This document shows positions 15,410 to 52,368 of a stretch of DNA of 64,000 bases, piece after piece. The DNA comes from Membranipora membranacea (taxonomy: Eukaryota; Bryozoa; Gymnolaemata; Cheilostomatida; Membraniporidae): assembly GCA_914767715.1 (NCBI GenBank), contig OU612065.1, positions 25,236,001 through 25,300,000 on the forward strand, given 5' to 3'. Below the pieces are notes generated by a model, which was not told where the DNA came from, did not search any database, and saw nothing but the letters and a program-made list of their open reading frames with translations. The first letter of the stretch is position 1, and each line of letters begins with the position of its first letter. Position numbers and translations under genes: made by a program.

Positions 15410-17127
15410 TCACAACAGTGCTAAATCATTGTTGTTTGCAGGTGTATTCATATCAATATCGGCATCCTGGAGGGAGTCCTGGTCATCTAATACATCTGTG
15501 TCAAGCTCATCTTCTGAGGAGTTGTCACTACCACTGACCTCAGAATCATCCCTGTCTAATGGGTTGTCATCCGCCTTGTTTCCTAATAAAAACAAATTGA
15601 CAACATGAAATTTCTATAAACAATTTGTCCTGTACCGCAAAACATTACATCACATTTAAACTTTCATCCACTTTCAGGCTAATTGCAAGCGTGGAGTCAT
15701 ATATGCTCAACCACCAGAAAGCTAGCATCATTATCAAGTTGCGTGACTCACCATAAGGCAATATACCATCTCCTTGTGTTCGGAGTGAGAGCTTCCATGT
15801 CTCATAAGCATCTTCTGCCTGCGATATCATAGCTTCATCAGCTAGCTGGTCAGTAGCTGGAAACCATGATTGATCAAGCTGTGGGGGCAGCAAATTTGGA
15901 AAACATGTCATGGAATATGATGACATGATCCAGTCTAAAATAACAAATTATTAAAAGAAATAAATAACCACTACTCTACTGTCAACTTAATTATCAGTGA
16001 GTTTATTATATACTATAGATAGACCACTGACAGTTCAGGGTGGCAGCATTTAAATGAGGTTCAACACGGACCTGAATGTTCAACAAGTTTTAAAAAATGA
16101 GCTGTTGAGACTGACTGACTTCTGAGTCCTTACAACATAGTAGTACCAGAGACTATAGATATAGATATATATCTATACTATAGTCTCTGGACCTGGTAGT
16201 GGTAGAACAACAAGTTACTAGCATAGTTACATGGGCCCCTGGGACTTGCATGTCTTTACTTTGCCAACCAATGTCCACTATCAACCACCCAAAAAACACC
16301 GGTGTTTTTTGGGTGGTTGATAGTGGACATTGGTTGGCAAAGTAAAGACATGCAAGTCCCAGGGGCCCATGTATAGTTAGTAGGAAATTAATTAATTAAT
16401 GCCTCCTCACCCTTAGATTTACAGAGTTTTGTTTTCCTCCTTTACTTCACTAGTTACTTTACATATATATTATATGTCACAGCCTTCGAGCTCCTTCTAT
16501 CCCACCCTCCCTGCTTCTATAAAAATTAGAATTTTTATGTTCAGCAGCAGGCAGCAGAAAATTAAACATAAATAACGTTATGAAAAGCAGAAAGTGAAAA
16601 CAACTTTAAAATAATCCTCCCTTTTGAAAAGAGCTTGACGACAAGCCAATCAAACCATTTCACTTCTCACTTGCTAACCAATCAGTGAGATGTATCAGTT
16701 GAGTCGTCATAGCGAGGGAAAATACCATGTGGCCATTCTGATAATAAACTTGAAATCCATCTTTGGACCTACTAGTATTAGCAGTTTCTCACAGTCACTG
16801 GACATAACCAAACTTACAAGACAAAGCTGGGCACACATCAGGCTAACTAGACTTGTTAATTGACCTATCTAATTTTTTGTCTGATTGTAGGAGATATACA
16901 TATAGTAAGCAAAGAGGAAAACCTGATCTTCCAAATTCCTGCTTTGCATCATCAGGTGGGCTATCATCTTCATCAAGGAGTAACTCCTTTGGTGTCATAA
17001 ATAGATAGGTACTGATAGTAAAGGAAGTAAAACCCTGGTTGAATGTCTGCAATAGAATATGTGACTTCCATTCTCCATGGTCAGAGAAGTGACCACCAGA
17101 AAGTCTGAACAAGGACTCCCTTTCAAC
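15410..17127 (-). CDS. unrecognised gene, last three exons, acidic tail
   Basis: Three minus-strand segments join in phase with good splice sites: 17127-16923 (ending TCAG before GTTTTC), 15934-15752 (ending before GTGAGT) and 15582-15410 (stop). Together they give about 187 residues. The first encodes LFRLSGGHFSDHGEWKSHIL and FTSFTISTYLFMTPKELLL. The second encodes DWIMSSYSMTCFPNLLPPQL and a Trp-containing helix. The third is an acidic Ser/Asp/Glu-rich tail ending NNNDLALL. The first two look like a folded conserved domain, but I do not recognise the family. No start codon or upstream exon was found between 17128 and the divergent DHPS start at 17457, so either 5' exons lie further away or this is a 3' fragment. 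Introns 1 and 2 are about 990 and 170 bp; the larger holds a 142-bp perfect palindrome. Confidence 0.6.
16146..16190. repeat. 45-bp hairpin
   Basis: Arms CCAGAGACTATAG (16146-16158) and its complement (16178-16190) around an AT-rich centre that can also pair. It lies in an intron of the minus-strand gene. No clear flanking direct repeat. Confidence 0.85.
16222..16379. mobile_element. 142-bp perfect palindrome with target duplication
   Basis: 16230-16371 is a perfect inverted repeat with no spacer, centred at 16300/16301. The arm starts CATGGGCCCCTGGGACTTGC and ends AAAAAACACC. It is flanked by CATAGTTA (16222-16229) and TATAGTTA (16372-16379), a 7-of-8 match as expected for a target-site duplication. 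A palindrome this long and flawless must be recent or an assembly fold-back; the flanking repeat favours insertion. Confidence 0.85.
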
Positions 17128-17456
17128 CTAAACATTTAGAGGGGGCCACAGCTTCTACAAGACCAAGGTCAAGGAGCTCTTCCACCACCGGGTCTAGTCT
17201 CTGGGGGTTAAGTACAGAAAAAAAGCTGATCTAAACTGTGAAACTTTACTTTATTTTTTACTAAGCAACTTTGACAATTTTGTTCAAAATAATATAGTTT
17301 CCACATTTATCTTTAGCGCACAGAGTCTCTGTTATTATCTGGTATCGATGCCAAAGGGCATATCCCTGTTATCCCCGCTGTTTCCACTGCACAACATCAT
17401 ACGGCTCTATCCGGTGTGTCTGTCCAGAAATTACACCTGAATATCACAACGTCACA
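17128..17456. promoter_or_regulatory. intergenic region between divergent genes
   Basis: Separates DHPS (+) from the minus-strand gene. On the minus strand 17205-17131 is open and reads RLDPVVEELLDLGLVEAVAP, but in a frame that does not join the exon at 17127, so it may be a retroelement scrap. No TATA box is evident. Confidence 0.35.
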
Positions 17457-20400
17457 ATGGCTTCAAACTCTGGTTAGTGACATATATTTTCATTTTAATT
17501 GGTTCGTCGTCTACCATGCGTCATCCGCCATGAATTTAGTCTCGCCATGTAAGCCTCTAAGAATTTAGTACTCGCCATGAAAGTATTGTTTGAATCTCTC
17601 TCCCTCCCTCCCTCCCTCTCTCTCTCCTGTTTCTGGTAGCTGGTTTCCGTTCAAGTAGGACAAAAGTGTGCATAAATCTTGTCTCCATTTCTGCTGGATG
17701 GTGAGGGCGGTGTGGCGACACCAATGAACGCCCTCTCCGGGAGTTTGTTGGTGTCCCAACAAGTAAACTTAGTGCATTGGTCACAGCAACAATATCAAGG
17801 GTAAAATGATATATCAAGGTGATTCACAAGCAGAATGGGAGCTCTTTTTGTTTTAATTTGAGTTGTTGCCAAGGTTGCCAGGGCATTTGAGATAAAGCCA
17901 AGGTTTATATGCTCGATAGTGCATATACTAATATTGCACCATATTTTGAAACTTATATGGATTCTATTGGAAGTGTTAACTTAAACATGGCTCTGGATTT
18001 ATTGCATCATAATCGCGTAATAAGTGAAACAATGTATTTTGTTAATACTATTGTTCTCACTAAAATAAATAATTTATAATGACAGCAAGATACCAAATAT
18101 TTTTACAATAAGTATAAAGATTTTATCATTAAGTATCCCCCAATTTCACAAAGAAATCATATGAAATTTCAAACTACGCTGTGGTCATTACCATATTACT
18201 ATTAGTAATAATGTTGAGTTTTTTTTTCCTTAGCATCTGGCGAACCAAATCAGTCATCGGGAAATATAAATGTACCTAACATGGCTACTGATGCTGTGCT
18301 TGTAAAAAGTGAATTTGACTCTGCAAATGCTCAAGTAGGTACCAGTAAGATCTAGCCTTGTCTTGCGGCTACTTTTTTGTTTGGGAGGTAAAACCCATGA
18401 CCAAAAAAACAGCCACATGACAAGTCTAAGTAATATCACATCCACCATCCCAGAAGATGCAAAGATAACAACACCGTATTTGAGTTGAGACATGCACACT
18501 TTTCTGTTAATCAGCTGTAACTGCTTTGTTAATCAAATGGAATCATTCAGATGATTGGAGATATTTGATTGTTGAAATGGATGATCGTTCAGATAGTTCA
18601 GATATCTATCATCATTGTTGAAGGTTGTAAAAGGGTACGACTTCAACGAAGGAATAGATCACCATAAACTCCTCTCCTCGTATCTCACTAGCGGATTCTC
18701 AGCTACTAACTTTGGTCTCTGTGTGGAGCAGATTAAAAGAATGGTAAGTCATTTATATTTTACACATGTAATTGTACATTTACACTATCCATACAAGACT
18801 ATCAGTGACGTGTGAGCGAGAGAAAAACTTCACAAGCATTTATAGACTTGATACCCTGAGCTACCTTTTGAGAAACCTTGATGTTACTTGTTTTTTCTTA
18901 TGTATCAGTAGGGTTGTACACACTGTATACTATTGTGTCACAAGAGGATTTGAAGTCGTAGGACCTGCCTGACGCGACGCTATCGTCATTCGTTGAGAAT
19001 CGAACACGGTACCTCTTTCGATAAAAAGACCCATGCCTTACCCTTTGCATCATAGCCAGTCCAGTTGTGATCAATAGGTGTATTCAAATTTTTAGCCACA
19101 CTCTTTGCCTACACATGAAGTTCATTCTTAATATATTGTTGTGCAGTGAGATTTTCATACTTGTTTCTTAATTTCTAATAATAGATTGAAAAAAAACTGG
19201 AGGTGCCTGTAGCCGATGTATCAGAATATAACAGTAATAGTGGTCGCAGAAAGAGCAACTGTACAATCTTCCTAGGCTTTACTAGTAACCTCATATCGTG
19301 CGGTGTACGGGAGACGCTGAAATACTTAGTCCAGCATAACATGGTGAGCTTATTGCAAAGTTTCGAACAAAATGGGTGAATCTTTTTTGATCGAGAAGTA
19401 TACCAAAAAACACCTTTCATTCCTATCTTCTCCTGTTACCTGACTACACAATTTGGTATTTTTAAGGAAACCTTTCTTCATTCACGTATTTCATTCTTTT
19501 TTGAATATTATTTAGCACCCATCCGTCTAAGTGGGGGTGATTCTGTGTATCGCATAGTGTGCCACACTGACATCGAGACTACGCTATTGACATGTGTATC
19601 TCTGATCGTTTATTTAGTACAAGTACCTAGCATGTACCCGCCCCTGATTATTAAAATTGATCTCAGGTCGTCATACCAAATTCATTGTCATGGTACTCTT
19701 GCTTAGTGAACTAATTCACTCTCTATTGATCAAAGCTATACATGCAATAGCATATCACGTGGTGGGTGTGATAGTGTGAGGCAGTAATGTGGATGCCTGT
19801 TACCCTGTACCAGGTTAAGTCTGTTAAAACTTTTGGCAGTTTGCTTCTCAGATGAACTAAGAAGTCTATTTCTTTGATATGATAGCTGACTAGTTCATTT
19901 TCTCGATCCCAGGTTGACTGCATTGTTGCCACTGCTGGTGGTGTAGAAGAAGACTTTATCAAGTGCTTAGCTGACACCTACATAGGCTCTTTTGAATTGA
20001 AAGGGAAAGCTCTCCGAGAAAAGGGAGTAAATAGGATTGGTAAGTCTATATATATATATATATGTATATACATTGTTGAGTTACTGTTCCCTATGGTAAT
20101 ATTTTTGTGTACCAATGAACATATAATAATTTGAGCGTTGTGAATTGTTTGGTTGTGCATTGGTCATGCTAAGCCAGAGATATGTGTGAACTGTGAAGTG
20201 TTTCATCTCATTTTTAAATCTCAATAGTTTTATTTATTTCATAATATTTTGAACAGCCAAACCTAAATAGCTAGCCAATTTATAGTGGTTAAATACTACC
20301 CAAAGACCACCATCAATAATTCATACCAAGTAGAGCATTGAATTTTTTTACCATGCAAATCTGACATAACTTTATCATAAGTAACTGACTGACTATAACA

Positions 20401-52198: not shown

Positions 52199-52323
52199 AA
52201 ACGTGATCTGAACCAGAGAGGTGATGGGAAGATTCCACATTCCATAAGTGAAGTGAAATTCCAGTAATATTCTGTGAGCCAGTCACTTTGTACCAAAACT
52301 CAATCATTTCTTATCTTTCTATT

Positions 52324-52368
52324 GATAATATCAGAGAGTAAGGATATATCCTTACTCTGTGATAATAT
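52324..52368. mobile_element. 29-bp palindrome, CACAGAG family, with 8-bp duplication
   Basis: 52332-52360, CAGAGAGTAAGGATA...TATCCTTACTCTGT, one mismatched pair. GATAATAT abuts both sides exactly (52324-52331 and 52361-52368). Lies in the GMD 3'UTR region. Confidence 0.9.

Follow-up and report, generated by a model that had tools for sequence, protein, structure and literature searches.

In a 64,000-nucleotide stretch of the genome of the bryozoan Membranipora membranacea (339 Mb, 18 contigs), namely positions 25236001-25300000 of contig OU612065.1 (C1; hereafter the window), ten short, repeat-bracketed palindromes that start with CA are present, all of them where an initial annotation had placed them. 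Nine of the ten are very probably excision scars of DNA transposons of the P superfamily, whereas the tenth, a 142-bp palindrome, stands apart. P transposase generates a 17-nt stagger and 8-bp target duplications (PMC7776569; this and the other papers cited are drawn on in excerpt), and because it cuts 17 nt inside the element ends, end joining leaves two target copies and, between them, up to 17 nt from either end. The end-joining products described for Drosophila P{wa} have the same build as the scars found here (PMC2895639), and scars of this kind are already known from Drosophila experiments. The reading is carried by the anatomy of the scars, by a 17-nt limit observed in one many-copy family and also for one other scar, by two empty sites, and by the presence of P transposase genes in the genome.

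Our counts clearly show more short CA...TG palindromes flanked by direct repeats of 7 or 8 bp than would be expected by chance. With exact 8-nt arms and an abutting repeat, the window yielded four hits, all four starting with CA; the average over 40 order-3 Markov sequences was 0.25 hits, none of them starting with CA. In a larger sample of 288,143 bp, made up of the window plus further stretches of the genome, looser arms gave an abutting repeat for 18 of 524 CA-start palindromes versus 7 of 5823 with other starts, and shifting the repeat outward by 1-8 bases reduced the CA-start counts to 0-5. With exact 6-nt arms, 15 cases started with CA and 2 with any of the remaining 15 dinucleotides, and 0 or 1 CA-start case was left once the repeat was shifted by 3-11 bases.

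The 17-nt limit is seen in the CACAGAG-type family. The 17-mer CACAGAGTAAGGATATA has 1094 + 1089 exact matches in the genome, and its reversed control has none. Immediately after it, CAGAG follows exactly in 442 of the 2183 ends and not in the other 1741, a 22-mer count that misses ends altered just past nt 17, such as the one at locus L080. The data on pairs and loci come from the first 100 of the 2183 matches, all of which lie on C1 up to 12.8 Mb; CAGAG continues 9 of these 100, which makes the sample poorer in elements than the genome as a whole. Among the 100 matches, there are 26 pairs of opposed exact ends, two long and 24 short. The long pairs are whole elements of 526 and 1683 bp, the latter with inverted ends of ~168 bp; in both, CACAGAGTAAGGATATA runs on into CAGAG, and their 7-bp duplications are acaatat twice (exact) and attaaat/atgaaat (one mismatch). 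The short pairs span 30 bp (18 pairs), 32 bp (3), 34 bp (1), 36 bp (1), and 43 bp (1), and in none of the 24 does the sequence run on into CAGAG, as all stop by nt 17. A body of at most 17 nt per end, plus possible filler, therefore describes all 24 exact pairs of this family, and it also describes the scar at 20427 in the window.

The junctions of these 24 scars fall into several kinds, with a TATA overlap in the 30-bp bodies, a TA overlap at 32 bp (L040-L042), a blunt join at 34 bp (L038), TA added at 36 bp (L036), and nine nt added at 43 bp (L039). The division of the bodies into overlaps is our own reading, and a 30-bp body may also be composed of 15 + 15. Asymmetric trimming and filler also occur among scars of the family, and at L059, L060, and L078, judged by eye, the tip of the overhang merges into the target copy via common letters, in a manner resembling the long-overlap class of Drosophila P junctions (PMC2895639).

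The filler scars bear on the suggestion, related to an alternative offered in the initial annotation, that breaks were repaired by template switching or hairpin capture, with flanking bases copied and no transposon involved. Filler resembling nearby sequence is indeed found at 48038 and at C1big 34849-34908 (L015 4849-4908), and the suggestion retains some value as a detail of repair at filler scars such as 48038, but it predicts neither the CA start, nor recurrent families, nor fixed 7- or 8-bp repeats, nor identity with element ends; the shared 17-nt ends also speak against template switching as the primary cause, which we regard as extremely improbable.

The same junctions bear on the view that these are extreme miniature transposons, consisting of two fused 10-17-bp terminal repeats and still inserting with duplication of the target. 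Consistent with this view, a single body of 30 bp, CACAGAGTAAGGATATATCCTTACTCTGTG, is found repeatedly, at many sites that each have their own target copies, and the 142-bp palindrome is fully symmetric with an 8-bp duplication. Against it, the variation sits at the junction rather than at the outer ends (30, 32, 34, 36, and 43 bp in one family, and six bodies in another), the bodies contain asymmetric trimming and filler, and the body matches the outermost 17 nt of larger elements, which makes this view very unlikely. The initial annotation had regarded the palindromes as derived from transposons and built of two terminal sequences, which holds; that they inserted as elements of 20-34 bp is not supported for nine of the ten, the bodies of which fit remnants of larger elements (526 and 1683 bp), although the 142-bp palindrome at 16230 does fit a description as two fused ends.

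The 100 matches come from 73 loci, all of which entered a census; among them, L063-L065 are near-identical neighbours and not independent. Eight of the loci are element ends, and all of these lack a second copy of the target within 60 nt; such a copy is present at 52 of the 65 non-element loci (mean 19.9 and maximum 28 in a swapped-flank control). An exact second copy is present at 35 of the 65, the same control giving a mean of 4.8 and a maximum of 10. This control is raised because a motif, ATANTAT, is common to the targets of the 7-bp class.

Taken together, these observations suggest the following course of events. An element would insert and duplicate 7 or 8 bp of target, a step documented by whole elements and empty sites. 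Transposase would then excise it by cutting 17 nt inside each end, as suggested by the constant limit and the known enzyme, and the outermost 17 nt would stay on both flanks, presumably as 3' overhangs. As the retained ends are inverted copies, their joining would produce a near-palindrome no longer than 34 bp, flanked by the two target copies. To judge from the junctions, annealing of complementary tips would give shorter bodies (28, 30, and 32 bp), trimming would shorten them still further, and filler would lengthen them. The cutting agent would be P transposase.

Further support comes from a search for empty sites, in which paralogs of 39 sites were queried. Two paralogous empty sites, for 29819 and 48038, lack both the scar and one target copy. 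The first is the right terminal repeat of an inverted-repeat element at 29805-30366 (ends CATAAACATATAAATAC followed by TCTAGACTGG; arms 29850-29907 and 30301-30358, 90% complementary), the left terminal repeat of which contains a 30-bp scar of the CACAGAG family (29819-29848, with repeats 29812..29855, ATATAAG/CTATAAG, one mismatch). Judging from the sequence, a CACAGAG element probably hit the left repeat and left the scar, the right repeat representing the state before the hit. The second, at 50451..50590 on the - strand, has a single target copy, TGGCAAC, and no scar; its counterpart is a 43-bp scar with filler (48038-48080, with repeats 48030..48088), which is asymmetric, has a TC end, and lies between 8-bp copies with one mismatch, GTGACAAC/ATGACAAC. 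For 47559, a possible empty paralog lies at 48691-48860, with an alignment that is ambiguous at the site. The candidate L028 was dropped as an empty site, since it stops at the scar.

The remaining palindromes of the window fall into two classes by repeat length. Four perfect 8-bp duplications had been reported; three stand as such. The 34-bp scar at 20427-20460 (with repeats 20419..20468, copies GCTTTAAC) consists of precisely 17 nt from each end of the 29805-30366 element, joined blunt. The 20-bp scar at 32646-32665 (with repeats 32638..32673, copies GGTGAAGC) has two mismatched pairs within its body. The 28-bp scar-like palindrome at 30286-30313 (with repeats 30278..30321, copies GGGAGGAC) has a relative without the repeat in the left arm of the 29805-30366 element, so that it was possibly copied along with the arm and may represent no separate event. 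The fourth reported case, 52332, has a perfect 8-bp repeat only when read as 29 bp with one G shared, the length originally given; we read it as a 30-bp CACAGAG-family scar (52332-52361, with repeats 52325..52368, perfect 7-bp copies ATAATAT, one mismatched pair). It is one of five palindromes (29819, 33100, 47000, 47559, and 52332) that belong to the 7-bp class, which corrects the repeat lengths first noted. The others are a 30-bp CACAGAG-family scar at 47000-47029 (with repeats 46993..47036, perfect copies TTGACAT, two mismatched pairs), a 30-bp scar of the CAATGAACTCCCTC family at 33100-33129 (with repeats 33093..33136, perfect copies ATGTCTG, one mismatched pair), and an asymmetric scar of the same family at 47559-47583 (with repeats 47552..47590, CTTTGAT/CTTTTAT, one mismatch), which is 25 bp long rather than about 24 and has five mismatched pairs. 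The window also contains, at 16147-16189, a 43-bp imperfect palindrome, CAGAGACTATAG...CTATAGTCTCTG, around which no target copies were seen; elsewhere (L016 785-816), its family occurs as a 32-bp scar with 7-bp copies. Two open reading frames of the window match reverse transcriptase (11243-11911, 8.2e-30) and Forkhead (58412-58954, 3.4e-41).

Beyond the window, several families share this anatomy. Bodies between 7-bp repeats start with CACAGAG, CAATGAAC, CAGGGAG, CAGAGACTATAG, or CAAGGAG, and those between 8-bp repeats start with CATAGA or CATAAAC. In the CAATGAACTCCCTC family, six different bodies are found at six sites. A list of 38 scars, or of 39 sites once the 142-bp palindrome is counted, contains 24 of the 7-bp class and 14 of the 8-bp class; it was chosen by eye, includes some entries whose duplication has a mismatch or whose arms are short, and leaves out clear failures (e.g., C1big 117722, C1big 125338, and window 16147). 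The target copies of the 8-bp class, which rests on few copies, have G first in 10 of 14, A at the penultimate position in 10 of 14, and C at the final position in 12 of 14. This is similar to the target of the P element, GTCCGGAC. At L031 7487-7561 (C1big 191487-191561), a scar of each class is stacked in one target. In 214 kb of contiguous DNA, there are 33 scars, or ~1 per 6.5 kb, an approximate figure given the by-eye list, and extrapolation from this one region would give ~50,000 scars over the 339 Mb.

A hAT origin, which had been favoured by the initial annotation, is not supported by these data and was rejected for the 7-bp class: in this class, the better sampled of the two, the repeats carry the motif ATANTAT, 17 nt are kept per end, and six bodies derive from the CAATGAACTCCCTC end. 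Two traits of a hAT element or miniature inverted-repeat transposable element (MITE) were looked for and did not agree: the repeats are 7 bp and not 8 bp in the CACAGAG family and in 24 of the 38 listed scars (8 bp in 14), and the body is not constant, as junctions vary within families. A 2017-bp hAT element is itself present at C1big 78774-80790 (L011 8774 to L010 790), with ends CATGGGCGTCACTAGG, an exact 8-bp duplication cagaccag, and a Dimer_Tnp_hAT match (2e-6). An attempt to confirm L026 5650-8855 as a CATAGAC element did not succeed.

It is also clear that the genome encodes P transposases. The P-transposase RNase H domain (PF21787) has at least 134 matches (best 6.5e-42), a lower bound, as 150 of 211 candidates were scored, and none in 14 control genomes. 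An open frame of 762 aa (L107 1941-4226) matches PF21787 (4.5e-26), PF21788 (1.9e-25), and PF12017 (8e-6), as well as the solved Drosophila P transposase, PDB 6p5a (3.2e-38); in the domain search, PF21789 was under the cut-off and no THAP domain was reported. A second copy of the region lies on C3 and is 99% identical over 5.5 kb. The L107 copy also contains a 126-bp insertion (5520-5661) between 8-bp copies of CCAGTGGT, which is missing from the C3 copy, the two forming a filled/empty pair, and at least 26 further genome matches correspond to about this stretch. Two more scar-like bodies lie beside the transposase gene: CAATGAACTCCCTCTTCATTG, between exact 7-bp repeats of catagtc (L107 5759-5793), and, in the right part of L108, CAAGGAGT...CTCCTTG, between copies atcttac/atctttc.

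Several observations weigh against attributing the scars to P elements. In none of the scar families did a transposase gene turn up between the ends, and the ends of the transposase-bearing element (L107+L108) were sought and not found, so that none of the families is linked to such a gene. The flanks of the 29805-30366 element show no target duplication. In the census, 13 of the 65 non-element loci lack a second target copy, these being diverged palindromes and one-sided joins, and other counting rules give 51 of 73 (including some chance matches) or 44 of 73 (an arm also being required). Six of the 38 listed scars exceed 34 bp (36, 39, 43, 35, 48, and 60 bp), and scars of 36 and 48 bp in the CATAGACCTACTAATAATA family have symmetric arms of more than 17 nt, compatible either with filler or with another stagger. 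Finally, the 142-bp palindrome (16230-16371, with repeats 16222..16379, 8-bp copies CATAGTTA/TATAGTTA, one mismatch) has no mismatches and 71 nt per side, far above 17, and is not explained by a 17-nt scar. Its first 70 nt have an 86% match to a single-ended stretch in L024, and it could be either a non-autonomous element of full symmetry or the result of incomplete gap repair.

The lack of a transposase gene tied to any scar family, the CACAGAGTAAGGATATACAGAG ends included, and the presence in the genome of hAT elements that have CA ends and duplicate 8 bp of target would also be consistent with scars left by another superfamily with a deep-cutting transposase. We consider this very unlikely, as the 17-nt stagger of P is unusually long among cut-and-paste transposases (PMC7776569), and as 7- or 8-bp duplications and CA ends are, in the excerpted literature, traits of the P superfamily, the transposase genes of which are many here.

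Comparison with known systems fits an origin from P-superfamily excision. Drosophila P footprints likewise have 8-bp copies and up to 17 nt per CA-start end, joined by short overlap, bluntly, or with filler (PMC2895639), but they were made in the laboratory at one insertion, whereas those described here are natural, belong to several families, include a 7-bp class, and occupy many sites. Galileo, of the P superfamily, shares 7-bp (some 8-bp) duplications, a palindromic target (GTANTAC versus ATANTAT here), and long terminal repeats, and differs in its end sequence (PMC4168063). Zebrafish Pdre2/THAP9 has CAT... ends and 8-bp duplications (PMC10983969), and a 418-bp element at L024 5419-5836, with ends CATACTTGCCAA and an exact 8-bp duplication atagtaga, is alike at 10 of 12 positions at its start (CATACTTGCCAA versus CATACCTGTCAAC in Pdre2). 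The excerpts on Pdre2/THAP9 deal with elements rather than natural scars, and those on Galileo contain no description of scars. A further small element, of 112 bp, with 17-bp ends CACAGGCCTTCTGTAGT and an exact 8-bp duplication gtccaaat, is found at L013 5068-5179, with further copies of its end nearby. The P-related MITEs of Anopheles gambiae are also short non-autonomous P relatives with 8-bp duplications, but they consist of ends plus an unrelated centre, which the scars lack (PMC1562414); the term "footprint" was not found in the excerpted text of that paper. No account of natural P scars counted genome-wide was found in the literature searched, a weak negative, as most subscription journals lay outside its scope.

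We consider it rather probable that P excision followed by end joining is among the main sources of small insertions here, with tens of thousands of scars (extrapolated from 33 in 214 kb) that outnumber the surviving element ends, several 7- and 8-bp families sharing one 17-nt cut, and, family by family, a natural archive of how breaks were repaired. Annotation could mistake such excision scars for tiny transposons, as happened in the initial annotation. As 1741 of the 2183 CACAGAGTAAGGATATA ends lack the CAGAG continuation, element copies alone would hide most of the history of the family, whereas a genome rich in scars allows past P excisions to be counted. Scars also permit the cut position to be inferred for families of which few copies are left, and they reveal, at many sites, the route (overlap, blunt joining, filler, or trimming) by which natural long-overhang breaks were joined.

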